A program made the translations under genes and the position numbers. Positions 26,215 to 40,252 of a stretch of DNA of 64,000 bases are shown here, piece after piece; position 1 is the stretch's first letter; every line of letters starts with the position of its first letter. This DNA is from Rikenellaceae bacterium. GTDB lineage: Bacteria; Bacteroidota; Bacteroidia; Bacteroidales; Rikenellaceae. The stretch spans positions 1-64,000 of the forward strand of contig SUZJ01000003.1 of the NCBI GenBank assembly GCA_015059945.1, in the 5' to 3' direction. The notes under the pieces are model-generated. The model was not told where the DNA came from. It ran no database searches and was given only the letters and a program-made list of their open reading frames with translations.

Positions 26215-26288
26215 GGTTCCGTAGCTCAGTTGGATAGAGCAACAGCCTTCTAAGCTGTAGGTCTTGGGTTCGAGCCCCAACGGGATCA
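26215..26288 (+). tRNA. tRNA-Arg (anticodon UCU)
   Basis: A 74-nt cloverleaf. The acceptor GGTTCCG pairs with CGGGATC (two G-U pairs). The D arm is GCTC...GAGC and the anticodon stem ACAGC/GCTGT has loop CTTCTAA, giving anticodon TCT. The T arm is TTGGG-TTCGAGC-CCCAA. The CCA end is not encoded. It reads the AGA codon for arginine. It is a single gene with its own promoter and terminator, between the PUL and the CRISPR locus. Confidence 0.96.
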
Positions 26289-26297
26289 CAGATTCGA

Positions 26298-26663: not shown

Positions 26664-29600
26664 ATGACAAAGATTTTAGGATTAGACCTCGGCACCAACT
26701 CTATCGGTTGGGCTATTACTGAACAGCAGGAGGACCATTTTACCCTATTGGATCGTGGCGTAGACATATTTCAAGAGGGTGTTGCTCGCGAAAAAGGCGA
26801 GGAGAAGCCTATGGTTCAGACTAGAACCGATGCCCGCGCACTTCGCCGACACTACTATCGTCGCAGGCTACGCAAGATAGAGCTCTTAAAGGTGTTGGTT
26901 GAGAACGACATGTGCCCCTACCTTTCCCCTGATGAGTTGAATGGGTGGCGGTATGAGAAACACTATCCCACAAGCGAGGAGTTTTTGGCTTGGCAGCGCA
27001 CGGATGACAACACCAACAAAAACCCATACTACGACCGCCACATCGCTCTTACAGAGGAACTCGACTTGACCATTAGGGCAAATCGCCATCTGCTCGGTCG
27101 TGCGCTCTACCATTTGGCACAGCGCCGCGGTTTTTTGTCCAACCGCAAAGACCAATCTTCAGACAATGATGGCAAGGTTAATGGAGGCATTAGTGAACTT
27201 ACAAAAAATATGGAGAAGGCGGGATGTGAATACCTTGGCAATTACTTCTACCATCTTTACCATAGTGGGGACAATATTCGTGCTCGCTATACTGGGCGCA
27301 AAGAGCACTATTTGGTAGAGTTTGATGCAATATGTCAGAAGCAGCGACTTTCCGAAGAGTTGAAGAAAACTCTGTATCGTGCCATATTCTTCCAGCGCCC
27401 ACTCAAGTCGCAGAAGGGTTTGGTCGGTGGTTGTACTTTTGAGAAAGGCAAGGCCCGTTGTCCCATTTCGCATCCTCGCTTTGAGGAGTATAGAATGTGG
27501 TCATTCATCAATAACATCAAGGTAAAAACACCTTATGGCGAAGAACTGAGGGATCTTTTGCCAGAAGAAGTGCAACTGATTGAGCCACTTTTCTACCGCA
27601 AAACCAAGGAGCATTTCGATTTTGAGGATATTGCCAAGAAGATTTCTGGTGGCAAGAAGGGAAGTTACGCACACATATCAGACAAGGTAGATGCGGCGTA
27701 TAAGTTCAATATCAAGATGTCTCACACCGTATCGGGCAGTCCTGTTACGGCCTCTTTGCGCAGCATTTTTGGAGAGGATTGGCTTGCGACAATGTGCAGT
27801 CTCTACCTCAAAGGCGAGGGTAAAACCCCCGACCAGATACTTGGCGATGTATGGCACGTTTTGTTTTCGTTTGATGACGAAGACAAGTTGAGCGAGTGGG
27901 CGAAAACCAATCTACAATTGACCGAGGAGCAGGCCAAAGAGTTTGTAAAAATTCCCATCAAACAAGGCTATGCTTCGTTGAGCCTTTGTGCTATAAATAG
28001 AATATTGCCTTGGTTGCGTAATGGGTACCGCTACGATGAGGCGGTATTTCTTGCCAATCTGGACAAAGTCGTTCCTCTGGAAGTGTGGAGTAATACCACC
28101 AAACGCAGTCATATTGTGGAATGTGTGTCAAACACAATTGCCAACTTTGCTCCCACAAAGGCGGGTAAAACCAAAGAAGATGCCATCTACTCTACCCTGC
28201 TGGATTGTGGTCTCTATGGAGATGAGCTTAAGATGGATAGGCTCTATCACCCCTCGAAGGTAGAGTCGTATAAAGATGCTCAACCCAATGCCAAAGGACT
28301 CATTTTGTTGGGCTCGCCACGTACCTCATCGGTGCGTAATCCTATGGCTATGCGTGCTCTGTTTCGCTTGCGTGCATTGGTCAATCAGCTACTCAAAGAT
28401 GGAAAGATAGATTCCAAGACCAAGATAAACATCGAGTTTGCCCGTGGGTTGAACGATGCTAATATGCGAGCTGCTATTGAACGCTATCAGCGCGAGAATG
28501 AGAAGCGACATAGGGAGTACGCTGACGAGATAGCCAAGTTGTTTAAGGAGGAGTGCGGTGTTGATATCACCCCTACCGAGGATGATATTTTGAAATACCA
28601 GTTGTGGATAGAACAGAACAAACTATGCCTATACACTGGTGAGCAGATAAGTATAACAGACTTTATTGGTGCCAACCCTAAATACGATATCGAACATACC
28701 ATTCCCCGCTCCCGAGGCGGCGACAACTCGCAGATGAACAAGACTCTATGCCAGAGCGACTTTAATCGTCACATCAAGTGCGAGAAACTTCCAGCACAAC
28801 TCGCCAACCACACCGAGATTATGGCTCGCATCGAGCAACTCGGTTGGGATAAGGAGGTTGAGGCTCTCGAAAAACGAATTTTCGGCCAAGATCGTGCAGC
28901 CAAAAGTGCCGCAACAAAGGAGGCAAAGGATAGAGCTATACGCGAACGCCACTTTCTACGAATGAAGTTGAATTACCTGCGTGGCAAGTTATCCCGCTTC
29001 GAGACGACCGAGGTTCCAGAGGGTTTCAGCAATCGTCAAGGTGTAGATATTGGCATTATTGGTAAGTACGCCAAAATGTATCTCGAAACGGTATTCGACA
29101 GAGTGTTTACTGTTAAGGGTGCAACCACTGCTGACTTCCGCAAGATGTGGGGATTGCAGGAGGAATACACCAAGAAGGAGCGCACAAATCACGTTCACCA
29201 CTGTATCGATGCCATAACTATTGCTTGTATTGATGCTGGTACCTACGCCAAGTGGGCGCAATTTCTGCGCGATACTGAGCGCTACTATTGGCACCGCGAC
29301 CTGCGCCCCGTTGTGGAGAAGCCGTGGCCTACTTTCACCGAGGATGTGAAGGCTGTGGCAGAAGAGTTGCTCATCTCGCACCACACAGCCAACAATCTTC
29401 CCAAGCACAGCAAAAAGGCTATGCGTGTAAGAGGTCGCATACAACGCAACGAGGCAGGCCAAATTAAATATATGCAGGGCGACACCGCTCGCGGAGTGTT
29501 GCATCAGCAGACCTTCTATGGTGCGATTAAGCGAGATGACGAGATTAAATATGTTGTTCGCAAAAAGCTCGACGAACTAAAAACAATGGCCGATGTAGAT

Positions 29601-30317
29601 AAAATTGTCGATGATGCAGTGCGCGAATGTGTTAAGGCGGCCATTGACCGCGAGGGCTTCAAGGAGGCAATGAGCAAACCCATCTTGTTCAATGCCTCGA
29701 AGGGTGTATATATAAAGAAGGTGAGGATTTATGCTTCGAGCGTCACCTCGCCCATACACCTCAAGCCCCACCGCGACCTCTCGCGCCACGAACATAAACA
29801 ACATTATCACGTTGCCAACGATAGCAACTATTGTATGGCAATCTACGAGGGTGAGGTGAGGGGCAAAACCAAACGCACCTTCGAGTTGGTAAACAATCTC
29901 GAGGCAGCCTTATTCTATAATAGCAAGAGCGATAACGAAACCATTGTTCCCCAAGTTAAGGATGGCTTGCCACTGAAATACCTTCTCCGCACAGGTACTA
30001 TGGTACTCTTCTACGAAACCTCTCCCGAGGAGTTCTATGAGTGCACCAAAGCCGACCTTGTGAAGAGGTTATATAAGGTAACGGGGATGAGCGAGCAGGT
30101 GGTTTCTGGCATATATCACTATGGCACATTTACATTGAAACATCACCAAGAGGCGCGACCCGCGGGAGATTTGAAAGCCAAGGGAGGTGAGTACAAAATG
30201 GGTGAACCATACCGTCCAGTTATAGGCATAAAACACACCCAATTCAACGCAATTGTCGAGGGATACGACTTTGAATTAACAGTTACGGGAGAAATAAGGT
30301 TCAAACATAAATTCTAA
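26664..30317 (+). CDS. cas9: Cas9, type II-C RNA-guided endonuclease
   Basis: A 1217-residue Cas9 with all nuclease motifs. RuvC-I is ILGLDLGTNSIGWA (D8). The arginine-rich bridge helix is near 53-77 (ARALRRHYYRRRLRKIE). RuvC-II is INIEFARGLND (E591), HNH is YDIEHTIPRSRGGDN (H678), and RuvC-III is HHCIDAITIA (H846, D849). HNH and RuvC each cut one strand of DNA matching a crRNA spacer. With only cas1 and cas2 following and no csn2 or cas4, this is subtype II-C. The size is larger than the roughly 1000-1100 residues of well-studied II-C enzymes but fits Bacteroidota members. The first ATG places the RuvC-I strand correctly. The PAM cannot be deduced here. Confidence 0.97.
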   Translation: MTKILGLDLGTNSIGWAITEQQEDHFTLLDRGVDIFQEGVAREKGEEKPMVQTRTDARALRRHYYRRRLRKIELLKVLVENDMCPYLSPDELNGWRYEKHYPTSEEFLAWQRTDDNTNKNPYYDRHIALTEELDLTIRANRHLLGRALYHLAQRRGFLSNRKDQSSDNDGKVNGGISELTKNMEKAGCEYLGNYFYHLYHSGDNIRARYTGRKEHYLVEFDAICQKQRLSEELKKTLYRAIFFQRPLKSQKGLVGGCTFEKGKARCPISHPRFEEYRMWSFINNIKVKTPYGEELRDLLPEEVQLIEPLFYRKTKEHFDFEDIAKKISGGKKGSYAHISDKVDAAYKFNIKMSHTVSGSPVTASLRSIFGEDWLATMCSLYLKGEGKTPDQILGDVWHVLFSFDDEDKLSEWAKTNLQLTEEQAKEFVKIPIKQGYASLSLCAINRILPWLRNGYRYDEAVFLANLDKVVPLEVWSNTTKRSHIVECVSNTIANFAPTKAGKTKEDAIYSTLLDCGLYGDELKMDRLYHPSKVESYKDAQPNAKGLILLGSPRTSSVRNPMAMRALFRLRALVNQLLKDGKIDSKTKINIEFARGLNDANMRAAIERYQRENEKRHREYADEIAKLFKEECGVDITPTEDDILKYQLWIEQNKLCLYTGEQISITDFIGANPKYDIEHTIPRSRGGDNSQMNKTLCQSDFNRHIKCEKLPAQLANHTEIMARIEQLGWDKEVEALEKRIFGQDRAAKSAATKEAKDRAIRERHFLRMKLNYLRGKLSRFETTEVPEGFSNRQGVDIGIIGKYAKMYLETVFDRVFTVKGATTADFRKMWGLQEEYTKKERTNHVHHCIDAITIACIDAGTYAKWAQFLRDTERYYWHRDLRPVVEKPWPTFTEDVKAVAEELLISHHTANNLPKHSKKAMRVRGRIQRNEAGQIKYMQGDTARGVLHQQTFYGAIKRDDEIKYVVRKKLDELKTMADVDKIVDDAVRECVKAAIDREGFKEAMSKPILFNASKGVYIKKVRIYASSVTSPIHLKPHRDLSRHEHKQHYHVANDSNYCMAIYEGEVRGKTKRTFELVNNLEAALFYNSKSDNETIVPQVKDGLPLKYLLRTGTMVLFYETSPEEFYECTKADLVKRLYKVTGMSEQVVSGIYHYGTFTLKHHQEARPAGDLKAKGGEYKMGEPYRPVIGIKHTQFNAIVEGYDFELTVTGEIRFKHKF

Positions 30318-30322
30318 TCGCT

Positions 30323-31210
30323 ATGCTCAAAAGGACTCTTTTCTTCTCCACGCCACTCGATTTGAGCCTGAAGAACAACCAACTCGTTGTCTCTACACGC
30401 CAAATGCCCGAGGTGAAAAATAGTGTCCCCATTGAGGACATTGGCTTCGTGGTGCTCGAGAATCAGCAGATTAACATCACGCTACCTTTGCTCAATGCCC
30501 TCTCGGACAATAATGCAGCAGTGATTATCTGTGGCGACAATTTTATGCCCAATGCAATGCTGCTCAATCTCGATAGCAACACCACGCAGGGCGAGGTATA
30601 TAGGGCACAAATCGAAGCGAGCGAGCCACTCAAAAAAGGGCTATGGAAACAGGTCGTGGAGGCAAAAATACGCAACCAGGCGGCTCTGCTCAACAAGTTG
30701 GGCAAAGATGGTGACAGACTAAAACCCTACTACTCAAATGTAAAGAGTGGCGATAGCGATAATCGCGAGGGCATAGCTGCCAAAATATATTGGAACGAAC
30801 TCTTTGGCGAAGATTTCATCCGCTCGCGCGAAGGCTCTTCGCCCAACAACTTGCTCAACTATGGCTACACCTTGTTGCGCGCAGCTGTTGCCCGTGCGCT
30901 GATGGGCTCGGGACTATTCCCTGCTTTCGGAATCTTCCATCGGAATCGCTATAATGCCTTTCCTTTAGCAGATGACATTATGGAGCCCTACCGACCATTT
31001 GTAGACGAGATTGTATTTGACCTTTGGGCCAATGGCGAACAAGAACTTACCAAGCAGATTAAGGCCGACCTAATACACATTCTCTATGTCGACACTCGCT
31101 TTGGTAAACTTTTGCGACCATTGGAAGTGGGGTTGACATTTACGACCGCTTCGCTTGCAAAGTGCTTTGCTGGCGAGGCAAAAAGATTGTCCTACCCATT
31201 ATTAGAGTAG
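30323..31210 (+). CDS. cas1: Cas1, CRISPR spacer integrase
   Basis: A 295-residue type II Cas1. An N-terminal beta-domain (about 1-75) is followed by the helical catalytic domain with E149 (DNREGIAAKIYW), H206 (FGIFHRNRYN) and D217/E221 (PLADDIMEPYRP), the expected metal-binding residues. It forms the (Cas1)4-(Cas2)2 integrase that inserts new spacers at the leader end. It starts 5 bases after cas9 and ends 3 bases before cas2, so all three share a transcript. An intact active site and uniform repeats suggest adaptation is or was recently working. Confidence 0.97.
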   Translation: MLKRTLFFSTPLDLSLKNNQLVVSTRQMPEVKNSVPIEDIGFVVLENQQINITLPLLNALSDNNAAVIICGDNFMPNAMLLNLDSNTTQGEVYRAQIEASEPLKKGLWKQVVEAKIRNQAALLNKLGKDGDRLKPYYSNVKSGDSDNREGIAAKIYWNELFGEDFIRSREGSSPNNLLNYGYTLLRAAVARALMGSGLFPAFGIFHRNRYNAFPLADDIMEPYRPFVDEIVFDLWANGEQELTKQIKADLIHILYVDTRFGKLLRPLEVGLTFTTASLAKCFAGEAKRLSYPLLE

Positions 31211-31213
31211 ATT

Positions 31214-31552
31214 ATGTCAGACATTCGCCTAAATGCTTATCATATTATGTGGCTATTTGTGTTTTTCGACCTACCAACCAACACGAAGAAGGAGCGTCGT
31301 GATGCAGCCCAATTTCGTAAGGCATTGGAGAAAGATGGTTTTTCGATGATGCAATACTCGGTTTATGTGCGCCACTGCCCATCCAAAGAAAATATGAATG
31401 TACACATAAATCGTGTGAGAAAGTCTATGCCCCCAAGTGGTCTGACGAGCATACTTTCAATTACCGACAAGCAGTATGGCGAGATACAAAACTTTTGGGG
31501 AAAGGTCGAGCGAGCAAAACTCACCACTCCCCAACAATTGGAATTTTTTTAG
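31214..31552 (+). CDS. cas2: Cas2, structural partner of Cas1
   Basis: A 112-residue Cas2 with the ferredoxin-like fold opening MWLFVFFDLPTNTKKERRDAAQFRKALEKDGF and SVYVRHC. Length and motifs are usual for type II. It bridges two Cas1 dimers in the adaptation complex. Its stop codon (31550-31552) directly abuts a TACATTTG promoter element that probably drives the CRISPR array. Confidence 0.95.
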   Translation: MSDIRLNAYHIMWLFVFFDLPTNTKKERRDAAQFRKALEKDGFSMMQYSVYVRHCPSKENMNVHINRVRKSMPPSGLTSILSITDKQYGEIQNFWGKVERAKLTTPQQLEFF

Positions 31553-31675: not shown

Positions 31676-34539
31676 GTTGTGGTTTGATGTAGAAACAAAA
31701 TAAGGAACAACCCACCATCGGGGCTATATAACACGAAAGAGGTTGTGGTTTGATGTAGAAACAAAATAAGGAACAACGTGTAGAGTTTAAGCCTGCACTA
31801 CTGCAAGTTGTGGTTTGATGTAGAAACAAAATAAGGAACAACGTCCAGCGTTGTATATTTACTGCTGTCGTAGTTGTGGTTTGATGTAGAAACAAAATAA
31901 GGAACAACAGAGTTATTAACCAAAAGCCCCCGATTAGTGTTGTGGTTTGATGTAGAAACAAAATAAGGAACAACTTAGCACTTGGTGGGACACGCCAATC
32001 TTCGGTTGTGGTTTGATGTAGAAACAAAATAAGGAACAACCGAACATTGGAACTCTCGCCATTGCTCACGGTTGTGGTTTGATGTAGAAACAAAATAAGG
32101 AACAACCAATGCGAACGCTAATAGCGGCATCAAGCAGTTGTGGTTTGATGTAGAAACAAAATAAGGAACAACTATTGGTAAAGTCTGCCTGCACATCGGG
32201 TTGTTGTGGTTTGATGTAGAAACAAAATAAGGAACAACACGGTAGCACAAGCCCGATTAAACACCAGGTTGTGGTTTGATGTAGAAACAAAATAAGGAAC
32301 AACTCCTGCGCTGCTGGGGCGAAGTGTACCACCGTTGTGGTTTGATGTAGAAACAAAATAAGGAACAACACTCATATCGTTTATATAATTTGTTAAATTG
32401 TTGTGGTTTGATGTAGAAACAAAATAAGGAACAACAATAGCAGTAAAAGATATGGCACGTTACAGTTGTGGTTTGATGTAGAAACAAAATAAGGAACAAC
32501 AGATGGCTATTGAGGTGGAATTTGATCACTGTTGTGGTTTGATGTAGAAACAAAATAAGGAACAACACAATCTTCAACTATATATTTAGGCAGCAGTTGT
32601 GGTTTGATGTAGAAACAAAATAAGGAACAACCTTGCCGATTTATTCCACAACCCGATGTGGGTTGTGGTTTGATGTAGAAACAAAATAAGGAACAACCCT
32701 TGCATCAAGAACCGGGGCGCAAATATAGTTGTGGTTTGATGTAGAAACAAAATAAGGAACAACTGCAAAATTAAAGCAAAGACAAACATTTGCGTTGTGG
32801 TTTGATGTAGAAACAAAATAAGGAACAACAAAACGAGCCTCAAGGTTACGGGCGTGAGCGTTGTGGTTTGATGTAGAAACAAAATAAGGAACAACCAATA
32901 GGATATGATACCTCTGAACCATTTAGTTGTGGTTTGATGTAGAAACAAAATAAGGAACAACCTACAGCCTGGGGGTCATCATAGGCACGCTGTTGTGGTT
33001 TGATGTAGAAACAAAATAAGGAACAACACTAACTCCAACAGCCTGTATAGCGCAAAAGTTGTGGTTTGATGTAGAAACAAAATAAGGAACAACTGAAGCA
33101 GCAAACGAAACAATCTACTGCCGGTTGTGGTTTGATGTAGAAACAAAATAAGGAACAACTTCTCCTACGGCTACACTGACAGAACAATGTTGTGGTTTGA
33201 TGTAGAAACAAAATAAGGAACAACTTTACCAGTATAAGCACGATATACCCAGGAGTTGTGGTTTGATGTAGAAACAAAATAAGGAACAACTATAGGGTGG
33301 TAGCTGTGGCGCGTCAGTACGTTGTGGTTTGATGTAGAAACAAAATAAGGAACAACTAACCCACTGATAATCTACAAAGCCATACGTTGTGGTTTGATGT
33401 AGAAACAAAATAAGGAACAACAATGTGTGGGGGTGCTTTCAAACTCTTTGTGTTGTGGTTTGATGTAGAAACAAAATAAGGAACAACTACATTTAGTTAA
33501 ACTTTGTTCGGCAAAGCGTTGTGGTTTGATGTAGAAACAAAATAAGGAACAACCGCCATCGGAACAGCAAGCATCTATTGGCTGTTGTGGTTTGATGTAG
33601 AAACAAAATAAGGAACAACCGAGCTGTATTTTATCCTGCTGCATATCCGGTTGTGGTTTGATGTAGAAACAAAATAAGGAACAACATATCAGAGATAAAT
33701 CCACCTGCAATCTGGTTGTGGTTTGATGTAGAAACAAAATAAGGAACAACATCGAAAGGCTTAACAAGCTTAGCAATACTGTTGTGGTTTGATGTAGAAA
33801 CAAAATAAGGAACAACCTGAAACACCAATATCCCAACGAGTAACAGGTTGTGGTTTGATGTAGAAACAAAATAAGGAACAACAAGGAGAAAACAAAATTA
33901 AATGCAAATGAAGTTGTGGTTTGATGTAGAAACAAAATAAGGAACAACTCTCTTGCAAGGCATCATAACTCGACCAAAGTTGTGGTTTGATGTAGAAACA
34001 AAATAAGGAACAACCGTAATAATCATTTACAGGTGCAGATACTAGTTGTGGTTTGATGTAGAAACAAAATAAGGAACAACACCCTCAATATTAGCAATTT
34101 TATTGGTCAGTTGTGGTTTGATGTAGAAACAAAATAAGGAACAACAGCACTCGACACAACCTGGTCAGCAATAGAGTTGTGGTTTGATGTAGAAACAAAA
34201 TAAGGAACAACGTATAATCCATTTAGTATTAAAGTCACCATGTTGTGGTTTGATGTAGAAACAAAATAAGGAACAACCTACAACAGTTGATACCAAAGCA
34301 TCTTCTAGTTGTGGTTTGATGTAGAAACAAAATAAGGAACAACTGCATCTTTATCAAGATTGGACATCGTGAGTTGTGGTTTGATGTAGAAACAAAATAA
34401 GGAACAACCTGCGCCATAGAGGTCTGCGCCATAGAGGTGTTGTGGTTTGATGTAGAAACAAAATAAGGAACAACGCCACCTCCTGCTCCCAATTCTCGGG
34501 CAGGTTGTGGTTTGATGTAGAAACAAAATAAGGAACAAC
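31676..34539 (+). CRISPR. CRISPR array: 44 repeats, 43 spacers
   Basis: A 36-base repeat starting GTTGTGGTTTGATG and ending AAGGAACAAC occurs 44 times. By eye all copies are identical, including the last. From the repeat starts, spacer lengths are 30 nt (33 spacers) and 29 nt (10 spacers). Repeat ends are inverted (GTTGT/ACAAC). The first 20 bases pair with the tracrRNA anti-repeat, giving crRNAs with the spacer 5' and repeat 3'. I noticed no two identical spacers. Spacer 42 (34409-34438) is two perfect 15-base copies in tandem. Targets are unknown. Confidence 0.98.
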
Positions 34540-34642: not shown

Positions 34643-34680
34643 AAAACGAGAGAGGTAGGAAAATTGTCCTACCTCTCTCG
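34643..34680 (-). terminator. Terminator of the NACHT gene, between it and the array
   Basis: Perfect 14-base-pair stem CGAGAGAGGTAGGA/TCCTACCTCTCTCG with a six-base loop, followed on the minus strand by TTTTATG. It may also stop read-through from the CRISPR array on the other strand. The 100 bases between the last repeat and this hairpin show nothing else. Confidence 0.85.
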
Positions 34681-34759
34681 TGATTATAGTATTCACATTC
34701 CTACAACCCCACGTCATCGGTAATATATATCCAAAACTCCATTCCTCAGGCTCGTTGAG

Positions 34760-37700
34760 TTAGTATCGTAGATATGCGTTGTAGGCATCTTCAATCCCGA
34801 ATGAGGGGGTGTGGAGGGCGTAGAAGTTGCGAGCTATGTTTTTGGCCTCTTTATTTAGGAATGAGAGGCTGTCGTCGCGCTCGGCCAGCGAGGATAGTGT
34901 CGCCATAACCACCTGGAGGTTATCCTCCGAAGTCATTGCCAACTCCTTGAAATAGCTCGTCACACTATTGATAAGGGTGTGGGGTTGGCGCCCATTTTCG
35001 TACTCCTTGCCCAACAATGGCAACTGCGCAATGTCGTCTATTGCGCTTAGGTCGTAATTGTCTATGACAACACCATCGTTGAATGACCAAGGGTGACGTT
35101 GCAGCAGTTCTATGGCCCTTTGGAGTCCCTTCTTACTGCCTGTGGCCAGTAGAATGTACAGCACCTCGGAGTGGCGGTCGGCAGCCACCAACTCGTATTG
35201 TTCCTCGGCATACTCACACACCTCTTGCAGGTCGAAACAGGAGTGATACCTCGGAGCTCCAATCCTATAAAAGTAGAATTTAAGGCGCGTATGGGCGGTA
35301 AGCTGGGCCTTGTATTCATCAAATAGTGCAACGGCCTGTGCGGGATAATCTCTCAAATGGAGCAAAATTGCAAGTATGTCATCTTCAAACAGTTCTGCCT
35401 GCTCGATCAGTCTGTCAAGCATCTTTTTGATAACGGCAAGCGAAGAGTCGCACAACCTCTGGCCAACCAGAGTGTTGCCCCAATCATCAAAGATATAGGC
35501 TATATTTTTGTCGGCCCTGCCTGTATTGTCAATAAATCGCTCCATCAGACCGATGATTTTCTCAAACGGGTAGACCTCCAATAGATAGTCCAAAAAGGTA
35601 GGAAAGTGGCGCTCCGAGTTATAGTAATGTATCTGGGTGTTGGACACAGGTAGTAACTGCTCTATCACTTCATCGGTGGGCTGAAGGCGGCAGGCTGCGA
35701 TAAGTTCGAGGTCGCTGGGGCTCATATTGCCGCTACGGATATGAGTGTACACCATCGTTGTCAGCGACAACAAGTGCTCGGGGCTTACTGTTACAACTCT
35801 ATCTGCGGTGAGCAACTTTTGGCACATCTGCCCAAACAGAAAGTTCTCTACCTTGCCTTTGTCGATTAGCTTGTCGTAGATTGCGCTCTTGTCGATAATA
35901 TCATCAACATCTCTTCCGAAACAGACCAAAAAACAGTATACAGCATCGTTCAGTGGCTTGCCCTCAAACGTGTGGTTGTTTACAATGTTAAGTCTGAGTT
36001 CTTCTTGCGATGCCACCACACGTTTTACCTCCTCTACAAAGTTGTCGGTGTCGAAGAGTATGTCGAAGGCTGCCTGCTCTTGCTGTATTCGGGTGTCATC
36101 CGTATCGCAGGGAAATAGCTTCTCTATGCACTCTCGGAGTTCGGGGTGGTGCTTTTGTAGGGTTTCGATACGCCCAAGAGCTTTCACGACACAGTGTCTA
36201 TCTCTGCGTTCGATGTTGTCGTTGTCGTAGAAGTCGCATATTCGCTCTGGTGTGGCACACGCAAAGAGCAATGCCTCAAAGGCGTCGGAATGGAACAGCA
36301 GGGTGGTTAGCCTATCCTCGCGCTTGTTTTGTCGCCAGTTGGCATAGAAGTCGACAATGTGGTTGTAGAGGAGAGTGTCCAGCTGACTGTCTAATAGAAA
36401 TTTTCTGTATTCTGCCACAATTTTACCACATCTCCTTTCAGCCTCGTTTGCAAGGGCGTCGAATAGGATGGCAATGTGGTCTGCTTGCAGCTCCGAGGAG
36501 CGTAACTTGCTGAGTATAGCCTTGATAGGCATATATGCGCTATCTCTGTCCGAGTCTACTATACGATGACGTTGAGATATGTACAACAAACCTCTGAGCA
36601 GGTGATTTGGATTGTTGAAGTGTTCAAATATCCCATAGCTGCCAAGGCGATGGTTGCCAAAACAATACTTGGCGTGACGGTCAAATATCCAATCGGCATA
36701 GTTGTCGCACATATTGGCCGCTTCCAACACCTCCATCATCTCTTCCACCAGTCCTACCGACTCTTTTGCTTGGACAACGTCAAATAGCTCGGCTATGTAC
36801 TGCTCGGTGTGGAACACTCTGTGCTCGTAGGGCTCGAAGTAGAAAAATGCCAAACTCCTCTCGCCGTCAAACTGCCTTAGCGCATCCAAGAGAAGCTGGT
36901 GTACCTGTGCTACTTCGATGTCGCCGAGCAGTCCAAAGTCGGCGTGGTGCAACAGGCGGAGGTTGTTACGCAGCACTGCATTGCACTTTGAACCACAATC
37001 TTTTAGCTGCCCTGCTATGAACATAATGTTCTCCTTGCTTTGGCATAGGTCCATAAGCAGCCTATCCTCCTTGGGGCTAATATCCAAGTCTATTCTTTGG
37101 GTTTGGTATTGAGTGTAAATGGCCTCGAATAGTTGTCGGCGGAAGGCGAGCGAGAGGTTGTGGCAATCCGATTTTATGACCACCAGAGGCTCCTTCTCGA
37201 CCAACCACTCCAAGATGGTTTTGCGACATCCGTCGTCGGTTTGCATATCTACATACAGGACCAAAGTGTTGTACCAGTGTGGGCGTATAATCTCGCACTG
37301 GCTGTAACAAACCAACTCTTTAACCCGCTCAAAGGGGAGTTTGGACAGCATCTTAGCCACCAGATACTCCTTGAAGGCATTGTGTACAAAGCCTATGGAG
37401 TGTTCGCTCTTGTGGAAAATCGAAGAGTGCTGACACTCTGTGATGTCGCTCTCCGAGAGTCCCAATTTTTCGCACTCGGTCAAGGGTATCTCTTGCAGCT
37501 CGGCCGACTGCATCACAAAGGCCACACGCTCCAATAAGGGCACAACTCGCTGCTCGAAGGTGTAGACTCCGCCCTTTGTGGCATTGCGGGCTTTGTCCCT
37601 TTTAAGGCCACATTTTATCACATAGTCGTATATGTCGCTCTTGCGATGCAGAATTCGTCTTTGGCTGTTGTAATACTCCACAATGGCGGTCAGAAAGAAA

Positions 37701-38701
37701 GGGGTGAAGCAGAGGTGGTGCAATTCGTTCTTCTCTACACTTGCAAGAAACTCGTCGGCCTGCTTGCACTCGCACTCGGCATACTCTTTCACATCGCTCC
37801 ACCTGATTTGGTCGAGATACAGGGCGTCGAAATTGTCGATGTGGTTGGTAGCCTTGTAATTGCCCCTACACGAAACAACTATTGCCACCTGAGGATGCTC
37901 ACTCGTTAGGTATTCAATCTCGGCAATAGCTTTGGCCCGCTCCTCATCCCTTATCTCGTCGAGACCGTCTAAGAGCAGGACAGGGCGAGAGGTTGCAGAG
38001 GGCTCAAAGATGCCATTTTTGTTGCATTGCCGCTCCAACTGCCCATAGAGGTAGTAGCGGAGTTCAAAGAGCGACACGCGGAAACCTCCGGCCATTTGTA
38101 ACAGGTGGGCCAGATGCTTCATCTCGGTTGTTTTGCCACATTGGGCCTCGCTATATAGGACACAGCGGCATTGTGGTTGCGAAATCAAATACTCATAGAG
38201 AGAGCAGTTGAGGTACCTCTCGGGGTGATGATAGTAGTCGGCAAACGACTCTACCTTGGCGTAAGTTCTGACCGTGCGTGGAATGTAGTTGATTATGCTT
38301 GCGGGTGAATAGAACTCGGTTTTGCTGCCAAACTGTTGCGTCAGTATGGAGTGGAGCTGCTCTTGTTTGTAATCAACCCGCTGGATATACATATCCACAA
38401 GTGCCAGATGGGTGACTGGGTCTTTGCGCAACTCCTCTTCCCACAATGCCACCAATTGTTGCACCTCGGTCGATTGTGCATCTATGCTGTTGTGGGTAAT
38501 GGCGTCGGTCAGTTTGTCGATAGAGAGGCACCTGCCAATGGCTGATGAACCGGCGATGGTGTCATTTTTGCACCATTTGTCGAGGGCTCGCTCATAGGCT
38601 TTGGCTACGGCATCGCGCCTCTGGAACTTTTCAAACAAAAGCCCCATACCACCACTCGCAATCTCCTGCAAGATGAAATATATAAACCCCTCTCCCGACA
38701 T
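34760..38701 (-). CDS. NACHT-type STAND NTPase, candidate antiphage defence protein
   Basis: A 1313-residue protein. Numbering is from the ATG at 38701; the longer frame starts with TTG almost on the predicted start site. Residues 1-160 are helical with no recognised effector domain. The NTPase core has a P-loop SEAQCGKTT (K190; first glycine replaced by serine), a Walker B VLLLDGLDEIRDE (D245, with D248/E249 as in NACHT proteins) and a sensor VVSCRGNY (R279). Then comes a winged-helix-like region (about 370-470, FVHNAFKEYLVAKML). About 800 residues of helical, repeat-like sequence follow, a likely ligand sensor. NACHT/STAND proteins (Avs, bNACHT) detect phage proteins and trigger cell death. 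It lies next to a CRISPR array in its own transcription unit. Defence function is inference. Confidence 0.78.
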   Translation of the reverse strand: MSGEGFIYFILQEIASGGMGLLFEKFQRRDAVAKAYERALDKWCKNDTIAGSSAIGRCLSIDKLTDAITHNSIDAQSTEVQQLVALWEEELRKDPVTHLALVDMYIQRVDYKQEQLHSILTQQFGSKTEFYSPASIINYIPRTVRTYAKVESFADYYHHPERYLNCSLYEYLISQPQCRCVLYSEAQCGKTTEMKHLAHLLQMAGGFRVSLFELRYYLYGQLERQCNKNGIFEPSATSRPVLLLDGLDEIRDEERAKAIAEIEYLTSEHPQVAIVVSCRGNYKATNHIDNFDALYLDQIRWSDVKEYAECECKQADEFLASVEKNELHHLCFTPFFLTAIVEYYNSQRRILHRKSDIYDYVIKCGLKRDKARNATKGGVYTFEQRVVPLLERVAFVMQSAELQEIPLTECEKLGLSESDITECQHSSIFHKSEHSIGFVHNAFKEYLVAKMLSKLPFERVKELVCYSQCEIIRPHWYNTLVLYVDMQTDDGCRKTILEWLVEKEPLVVIKSDCHNLSLAFRRQLFEAIYTQYQTQRIDLDISPKEDRLLMDLCQSKENIMFIAGQLKDCGSKCNAVLRNNLRLLHHADFGLLGDIEVAQVHQLLLDALRQFDGERSLAFFYFEPYEHRVFHTEQYIAELFDVVQAKESVGLVEEMMEVLEAANMCDNYADWIFDRHAKYCFGNHRLGSYGIFEHFNNPNHLLRGLLYISQRHRIVDSDRDSAYMPIKAILSKLRSSELQADHIAILFDALANEAERRCGKIVAEYRKFLLDSQLDTLLYNHIVDFYANWRQNKREDRLTTLLFHSDAFEALLFACATPERICDFYDNDNIERRDRHCVVKALGRIETLQKHHPELRECIEKLFPCDTDDTRIQQEQAAFDILFDTDNFVEEVKRVVASQEELRLNIVNNHTFEGKPLNDAVYCFLVCFGRDVDDIIDKSAIYDKLIDKGKVENFLFGQMCQKLLTADRVVTVSPEHLLSLTTMVYTHIRSGNMSPSDLELIAACRLQPTDEVIEQLLPVSNTQIHYYNSERHFPTFLDYLLEVYPFEKIIGLMERFIDNTGRADKNIAYIFDDWGNTLVGQRLCDSSLAVIKKMLDRLIEQAELFEDDILAILLHLRDYPAQAVALFDEYKAQLTAHTRLKFYFYRIGAPRYHSCFDLQEVCEYAEEQYELVAADRHSEVLYILLATGSKKGLQRAIELLQRHPWSFNDGVVIDNYDLSAIDDIAQLPLLGKEYENGRQPHTLINSVTSYFKELAMTSEDNLQVVMATLSSLAERDDSLSFLNKEAKNIARNFYALHTPSFGIEDAYNAYLRY

Positions 38702-38738
38702 TGATTTACTGATACTTAATACCAAATGTGTTGGTAGA

Positions 38739-38768
38739 CAAAAATACTAAAAAAAGCCCAACAAACAA
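38739..38768 (-). promoter_or_regulatory. Promoter of the NACHT gene
   Basis: Minus-strand TTG (38766-38768), 19 bases, TATTTTTG (38739-38746). The start would be near 38732, about 30 bases before the ATG at 38701, which argues against the earlier TTG start codon at 38725. Confidence 0.75.
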
Positions 38769-38836: not shown

Positions 38837-38854
38837 ATCCAATGGATGATGTAA

Positions 38855-40252
38855 CTATTTTGCCAACAGCATAAAGCCCCACGCTGCAAGCTCTACTGTG
38901 TCGCCAGCCTTGAAGCTCTTGGCCTCGCCACAAGCACACTTGTAGTCGCCAGCCTCGGCCTCGGTGAGGGTAACGGTGGTGGGCTCGGCCGAGAAGTTGA
39001 ACAAGCACAGAACGGTGTTATCCTCCTTCTGGCGGGTGAATGCCAACACGTTCTCGCCCACGCCCTCGACAAACTCTGCGGGGGCCACCTCAGCACCTGC
39101 TGCCAGAGCCTTGTTGGCGTGGCGGAACGAGCAGAGGGTGCGGTAGAAGTTGCGATACTCCTTGCCGTACTCGAGGTCTACAAGCTCCTTCACCGAGTCT
39201 TTCTCGAAGAACTGCAAGCGGCGGCTCAGAGCAATCTCCTGGCCGGTGTAGATAAGGGGCTGCGACTTGGGCATAACAAAGGTAAGGGCTGCCAGAGCCT
39301 TGTGAGCATCGCCCATACGCTCAAACTCGGTACCTGCCCACGAGTTCTCGTCGTGGTTGGAGGTGAACATCAGGCGCATTGCGGGTGCGGGATACTTCTG
39401 GTCGTCGCGCTCCATATACTCTTTGAGGTCTTTGACGGTCTTGGCATTGGTCTTGATGGTGCCATCGCCAGCCACGTTTTTGGTCTCGCTACCACCTTTG
39501 GCCATAGCGTTGAAGATGTGGTGCAGCTCCCAAGCGTAGGTGGCATCGAAACCGCTCTCGTGCAGCCAGGTCTCCTCGCCCTCGGCCAGCAGATATACGT
39601 CGGGGTTAATCTTGCGAACCTCCTCCCAAGCCTTCTTCCAGAAGTCGGCAGGCACGTTCATAGCAACGTCGCAACGGTAGCCATCAACGCCCTTCTCGAT
39701 CCAGAATTTGATGGCGTCGAGCATTGCAGCACGCATATCCTCATTCTTGTAGTTGAGCTTGGCAATATCGGTCCAGTCGTACTCGACAATGGGCACACCG
39801 GTCTTTTCATCCATAACATACCAATCTTTCTTACCCTCTTTCCACCAGTTGGCATCGCGCGAGGTGTGGTTGGCAACCCAGTCGATGATGACTTTCAAGC
39901 CCAGCTCGTGAGCAGTGGCCAGGAAGTGGTCAAAGTCCTCCATAGTACCAAACTCGGGGTTGATAGCCTTGTAGTCGATAATCGAGTAGTACGAGCCAAG
40001 AGTGCCCTTGCGACCATCAACACCAATGGGGCTGATAGGCATAAGCCACACGATATCCACACCCATAGCTTTGAGCTCGGGCAGATACTCCTCGGCAGCT
40101 GCAAAGGTACCCTCCTCAGTTGCCTGACGAACATTCAGCTCATAGACAACAGAGTTATACTTGTCAAAGGTCGATGTGTTTTCGGTTTGGGCACCACCGC
40201 AGCCCATCAGTGTCGCAACAAGGGCGACCAGCGCAAATAATTTCTTCATCAT
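38855..40252 (-). CDS. GH13 alpha-amylase family lipoprotein
   Basis: A 465-residue lipoprotein (LMGCGG, C18) with a complete GH13 catalytic barrel. VIIDWVANHT marks conserved region I, GYRCDVA gives the nucleophile D195, LLAEGEE the acid/base E224, and FTSNHDEN the third carboxylate D301. A short C-terminal beta-domain follows (about 385-465). It cleaves alpha-1,4 glucosidic bonds in starch, glycogen or maltodextrins, probably in the periplasm or at the outer membrane. It is 21 bases downstream of a second GH13 gene and shares its transcript, ending at the 20-base-pair terminator. No SusCD pair is adjacent, so it may serve a distant starch system. Confidence 0.92.
   Translation of the reverse strand: MMKKLFALVALVATLMGCGGAQTENTSTFDKYNSVVYELNVRQATEEGTFAAAEEYLPELKAMGVDIVWLMPISPIGVDGRKGTLGSYYSIIDYKAINPEFGTMEDFDHFLATAHELGLKVIIDWVANHTSRDANWWKEGKKDWYVMDEKTGVPIVEYDWTDIAKLNYKNEDMRAAMLDAIKFWIEKGVDGYRCDVAMNVPADFWKKAWEEVRKINPDVYLLAEGEETWLHESGFDATYAWELHHIFNAMAKGGSETKNVAGDGTIKTNAKTVKDLKEYMERDDQKYPAPAMRLMFTSNHDENSWAGTEFERMGDAHKALAALTFVMPKSQPLIYTGQEIALSRRLQFFEKDSVKELVDLEYGKEYRNFYRTLCSFRHANKALAAGAEVAPAEFVEGVGENVLAFTRQKEDNTVLCLFNFSAEPTTVTLTEAEAGDYKCACGEAKSFKAGDTVELAAWGFMLLAK

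Follow-up and report, generated by a model that had tools for sequence, protein, structure and literature searches.

The window analysed here is a 64,000-nucleotide stretch of DNA from a Rikenellaceae bacterium (contig SUZJ01000003.1, positions 1 to 64,000). A lone gene for a large NACHT protein of the STAND (NLR-like) type lies in it, flanked by an amylase gene (38855-40252) and a CRISPR array. The frame of the NACHT gene is intact. A longer version of the frame, 34760-38725 on the reverse strand, begins with TTG and would give 1321 residues; the 1313-residue form agrees with the numbering of the P-loop lysine as K190. The protein can be divided into an all-helical N-terminal module, a NACHT core and a long C-terminal region (Table 1). 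The new element is the module, which is conserved and transferable.

Table 1. Features of the NACHT gene and its surroundings, in window coordinates
Feature	Position	Strand	Remarks
N-terminal all-helical module, residues 1-124	38330..38701	-	hydrophobic first helix; no Pfam family; about 120 residues
NACHT STAND (NLR-like) protein, lone gene	34760..38701	-	1313 residues from ATG at 38701
NACHT-HD1-WHD-HD2-like core, about residues 116-587	36941..38356	-	K190, D245/D248/E249, R279, F438-x-H440 (WHD-type)
C-terminal region, putative sensor, 724 residues past the NACHT profile match	34763..36934	-	profile-level similarity to family C-termini
Intrinsic-terminator-like hairpin, 15 pairs then TTT	34646..34681	-	3' of the NACHT gene
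Possible Bacteroidetes-type promoter: TTTG, 15 nt, TATTTTTG	38739..38765	-	by eye; spacing below consensus
Type II CRISPR array, 44 identical 36-nt repeats	31676..34539	+	neighbour, outside the proposed system
cas9 (1217 residues), cas1, cas2	26664..31552	+	neighbours, upstream of the array

The NACHT identity of the protein is clear from profile comparison and from its predicted fold. The Walker A motif reads SEAQCGKTT and holds G189 and K190, the Walker B motif is LLLDGLDEIRDE, and sensor 1 is VVSCRGNY, with R279. The first-pass annotation, made from the letters of the window, had described a NACHT protein of this length with this lysine and sensor, and motif reading and fold comparison bear it out. 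G189, K190, D245, D248, E249 and R279 are invariant in all 25 aligned sequences, the window protein included; F438 and H440 are invariant in alignment A8. By analogy with NLRC4, H440 may be the winged-helix histidine that contacts ADP. Over about residues 116-586 the predicted core matches NLRP3, NLRC4 and NOD2, which makes the protein look akin to human NLR immune sensors, and fold and profile comparison reveal the NBD-HD1-WHD-HD2 arrangement in it. The Pfam NACHT family (PF05729) stays below threshold for the window protein, at 12.1 bits against a cut-off of 26.7. Of the 25 family members, 23 match it at E<=0.01; the cut-off marks what the model can detect and does not define the family.

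The first glycine of the P-loop (GxxxxGKS/T) is replaced by a serine, S184. This substitution had been remarked on earlier and is real: it occurs throughout the subclade to which the protein belongs (three members), while most other family members have the glycine and a few have serine or alanine. It bears on nucleotide binding and is not taken as excluding membership of the NLR-type NACHT proteins. The reading as a dead gene with a defective P-loop was rejected, because the serine is common to the subclade and the frame is intact.

The N-terminal module is common to the window protein and the proteins L007, L004/L010 and L113/L143. Two of these are relatives with the same NACHT core; in a fourth genome (L113/L143), computation places the same module at the head of a different P-loop NTPase. 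The latter protein has 1026 residues (L143:5434-8514), and its neighbours read like CTP synthase and YidC. Lenient searches with the module gave matches in 18, 3 and 3 genomes besides that of the window, of which one was kept, L113 (E 1.7e-6). Eight further loci were read as unrelated proteins and dropped, as were three more matches, two FeoB-like and one short and lipoprotein-like; L116, L119, L121, L122, L124, L125, L127-L129 and L132-L139 were not read singly. Among phage and plasmid sequences the sole match was the record from B. ovatus described below, and viral contigs gave no useful match.

No Pfam family was found in the module, in agreement with the earlier description of an unexplained N-terminus lacking a recognisable effector. 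A housekeeping match, which the first-pass annotation had named as counter-evidence, was looked for in Pfam and by comparing the module profile with PDB sequences; none was significant, and the best E value against the PDB was only 0.073. A PDB sequence search with the window protein gave no useful match. HeLo, MLKL, CC and Death-fold chains are absent from the match list of the module's modelled fold, a result that excludes nothing. A hydrophobic N-terminal helix does head the helical bundle, which is a weak criterion for kinship with HeLo, CC or BELL domains. The literature, which was not searched by module sequence, yielded no account of the module.

Such a module might work as Death/CARD domains or bacterial EADs do, as an adaptor recruiting a separately encoded effector on oligomerisation. 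It is all-helical and reused on another NTPase, and EADs are mostly helical adaptors in the available text of PMC8195603. An adaptor of this kind is harder to reconcile with a gene that stands alone. Searches of the genome that contains the window, at E<=0.05 and E<=0.02, met no further copy of the module, although a more divergent one could escape them; nor was there one among open reading frames (ORFs) of at least 250 residues at the homologue loci, the B. ovatus plasmid stretch included, with shorter proteins outside the scan. The adaptor is a tentative alternative.

Homologues of the core were collected with a profile of three relatives, run on the genomes of the phylum, on genome contigs and on IMG/VR. 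Ninety ORFs matched at E<=1e-4, and the best 24 of the 90 (E<=1.6e-24) were studied. Family members have 1164-1599 residues, except P0004 (647 residues), which is truncated by a contig end; L028 and L008 are also truncated in this way.

The region in front of the core differs between members. Among the 25 whole proteins, the Pfam heads at E<=0.01 are Peptidase_C14 (three), DUF4062 (two), Mrr_cat (two), Metallophos (one) and DUF676 (one). Reading the proteins assigns the caspase heads to L020, L022 and L024 (that of L022 being confirmed by a separate scan), Metallophos to L008 and DUF676 to L026. Ten N-termini were also scanned alone. Mrr_cat was over its cut-off in L108, L109 and L031 and under it in L084, L029 and L038; DUF4062 was over its cut-off in L021 and under it in L106. 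By eye, L107 has a DUF4062 head, and L023 and L025, which have no Pfam nuclease match, are nuclease-like. The slot is enzyme-like in 16 of 24 homologues, L107, L023 and L025 by eye only. The remainder comprises five short N-termini (L027, L030, L032, L033, L009), the truncated L028 and the two proteins with the module.

On a tree of 23 NACHT cores the heads need nine changes, the least possible being seven and the mean for shuffled heads 14.8. L023 and L021 are sisters on this tree (95/88), beside the esterase and phosphatase members, and carry different heads. Thus, the head of the family is an exchangeable slot that may hold a caspase, a TIR-like DUF4062 domain, an Mrr-type nuclease, a metallophosphatase or an esterase. 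The tree omits L109, L009 and L113. Long branches are flagged for the window protein, L004, L008, L108 and L025, and the pairing of the window protein with L004 is uncertain. Two more weak NACHT matches lie in the window's genome, at G000:C5:80574-80705 and C5:199282-199563.

The slot could instead hold a structural cap or linker in the window protein, with the NTPase itself or the C-terminal region serving as effector, as in the relatives with short N-termini. No enzyme domain was read in those five proteins. Clade 14 bNACHT proteins, which by description resemble the window protein in having a NACHT core and no visible enzyme, protect without a discernible effector in the available text of PMC12169576. 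The enzyme-like heads of most homologues (three of them seen by eye only) and the conservation of the module across two NTPase types speak against a mere cap, which is an unlikely reading.

The C-terminal region is also of a consistent size in the family. It extends for 724-772 residues after the NACHT match in 19 of 24 proteins (the window protein and P0002 counted, P0004 excluded). A profile of 22 other C-termini, searched against just two sequences, matched P0002 at 1.7e-34, with a large bias correction, and the window protein at 1.4e-11. A single-sequence search with the window protein's C-terminus found only itself, and HEAT_2 was matched in 4 of 25 family members. At the level of sequence the core is firmly common to the family, and the window protein's C-terminus more weakly so.

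The NACHT family is dispersed. Of 23 genomes in its genus, only its own holds a match to the window protein. Its family gave matches in 3 of 268 genomes (its own, G227 and a weak one in G089), its order in 2 of 393. The three-sequence profile matched 6 of 395 phylum genomes, that of the window among them; many genomes in these counts are incomplete. Neither the window protein nor P0002 gave a useful match among genome contigs and viral contigs. P0002, the closest homologue with a named source (B. ovatus), lies on a mobilizable plasmid, near integrases and a transposase. Among 109 neighbouring ORFs of 19 homologue loci, PADLOC named type I and type IIG restriction-modification, DarG and mad2-like genes, at one or two ORFs per family among the 25 families listed of 186, with no baseline for comparison.

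STAND NTPases also regulate transcription. The window protein might accordingly be a regulator outside phage defence, acting in signalling or in the control of plasmids or prophages. The mobilizable plasmid around P0002 suits such a role, and PADLOC names no system for the window protein, giving only a weak 'Effector, 2TM' row (E 0.017). The caspase, nuclease, TIR-like and phosphatase heads of the family, which are typical of defence, point the other way, as do the restriction-modification and DarG genes beside some homologue loci, for which the missing baseline applies. The regulator is the least probable of the alternatives, and rather improbable.

The NACHT gene had been said to stand against a CRISPR array, and the 44-repeat array does lie 220 nt from it; the value of the array as context was not supported. 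The gene is found in none of the 22 genus relatives, for which reason the adjacency looks local. The annotation around the B. ovatus homologue lists no cas gene (arrays around homologues were not searched for). A role as CRISPR accessory was rejected as unsupported: besides its absence from the genus relatives, the gene is missing from nine amylase-adjacent regions. The flanking amylase is present in 10 of the 23 genomes of the genus, counting that of the window. In the nine amylase-bearing relatives homology ends at window position 38842-38874, at the end of the amylase, and the sequence beyond differs (some contigs end soon). The amylase-adjacent position is a variable site.

In one of these relatives (G013) a Cas9 that is 75% identical over the 995 residues compared lies beside the amylase, the contig ending inside cas9. 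This cas9 (L157) is directly downstream of the same amylase and shares its strand, whereas in the window the two genes are on opposite strands. Either an inversion of the CRISPR locus or two separate gains at this site may explain the difference. The third-position GC content of codons in the NACHT gene (0.611) lies between those of the amylase (0.706) and cas9 (0.538), with further ordinary window genes at 0.571-0.607. A tRNA-Arg(TCT) gene at 26215-26289 lies just upstream of cas9, and the far side of the variable region shows no repeat that resembles an att site. An integrative element at this tRNA gene was considered and rejected, no common exact repeat of at least 12 nt being found at the far end.

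The gene had been credited with its own promoter and a strong terminator. The second part stands as a terminator-like hairpin. A sigma-70 scan upstream of the start found no promoter, and what can be offered is a possible -7 box of Bacteroidetes type, TATTTTTG at 38746-38739, read by eye against the Bacteroidetes consensus. A 20-pair hairpin just upstream of the gene (38836-38789, reverse strand) would serve the amylase gene.

Several known systems resemble the window protein in part. The antiphage metallophosphatase-NACHT system DS-8 of DefensePredictor (PMC13092281, in its available text) has the two-part architecture of family member L008, whose NACHT core is homologous to that of the window protein; the likeness to DS-8 is one of described architecture, and the window protein has the helical module in place of a phosphatase. 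The L008 locus (L008:1-4191) lies on a scaffold submitted under the name 'Bacteriophage sp.' (MT838439), and its 5' end is open. Clade 6 bNACHT proteins carry nuclease heads, by description like those of the window protein's relatives (PMC12169576, likewise in part). DUF4062, a TIR-like NADase domain also called Swarozyc, adjoins NACHT in human TEP1, NWD1, NWD2 and NPHP3 according to the text available of PMC13174449. It heads L021, L106 and, by eye, L107, and is lacking in the window protein. These three come from phylum genomes and a metagenome-assembled genome labelled Deltaproteobacteria, and the pairing resembles that in human TEP1, NWD1 and NPHP3.

NCBIfam already labels distant relatives, HyoA and EruA (NF058534, NF058535), as antiphage. 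Their match is partial and confined to the NACHT core, with no C-terminal alignment and no module: EruA matches 21 and HyoA 11 of 25 family members at E<=0.01, and the window protein falls short of both curated cut-offs, with 30.9 bits where 1200 are required and 15.5 where 1000 are. A search for papers on antiphage HyoA/EruA found none and turned up an unrelated EruA of E. coli. Avs (AVAST) proteins are also large STAND proteins, with an N-terminal effector and a C-terminal sensor. However, the window protein has no PADLOC Avs match, and in the core fold search Avs4 stands at rank 49, animal NLRs matching better. The earlier label 'undescribed' thus holds in part. The conserved, transferable module is new, while NACHT proteins lacking an effector are in print, as far as the text of PMC12169576 extends, and the HyoA/EruA families already carry an antiphage name.

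The protein is an NLR-type NACHT STAND, and a defence role is probable, because heads of defence type sit on this core in other members of the family and the metallophosphatase-NACHT DS-8 is antiphage. With moderate confidence, it can be read as a phage-responsive, NLR-like receptor with a non-enzymatic output; sensing, oligomerisation, membrane action and defence are what we infer. At rest, the NACHT and winged-helix core would hold ADP and remain closed, as suggested by the NLR fold and the conserved histidine, and the C-terminal region would act as the sensor. On activation the cores would oligomerise and bring many helical modules together. What this step would gather in the relatives is a caspase, a TIR-like NADase, a nuclease or a phosphatase; in the window protein the clustered module would act non-enzymatically.

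How it would act is less certain. The first choice, itself short of an even chance, is by analogy that the hydrophobic first helices of the module attack the membrane, as plant CC and fungal HeLo domains do. The hydrophobic character of the first helix favours it, as do the precedents set by HeLo, plant CC and the proposed BELL domain. HeLo and the proposed bacterial BELL domain are helical and form the output end of NLR-type systems (PMC7889193, in its available part). The module resembles HeLo/HELL/BELL and plant CC in being a bundle of helices, one of them hydrophobic, at the end of an NLR-type protein from which the output would come, but no sequence or fold match to them was found, and BELL is a separate protein in that text whereas the module is fused to its NTPase. 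Recruitment of a separate partner comes second, close behind membrane attack. A bolder and distinctly unlikely form of the membrane reading is that the module is a membrane-perforating head and the receptor oligomer itself the pore, a lone-gene equivalent, in bacteria, of the CC-NLR resistosome of plants, with a head shuffled between NTPase receptors. No bacterial case of a pore-forming helical head on an NLR, shuffled between NTPases, was met in the literature searched.

Should the receptor reading hold, a single core would serve at least six kinds of head, of which one is non-enzymatic and undescribed. Cousins of the protein carry interchangeable enzyme heads, and how a helical head in that place would stop a virus is a testable question. 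The window protein would allow a direct test of what an enzyme-less bacterial NLR does on activation, which is relevant to effector-less bNACHT proteins as well. It may also offer a parallel in bacteria to the helical heads with which NLRs of plants and fungi act on membranes.

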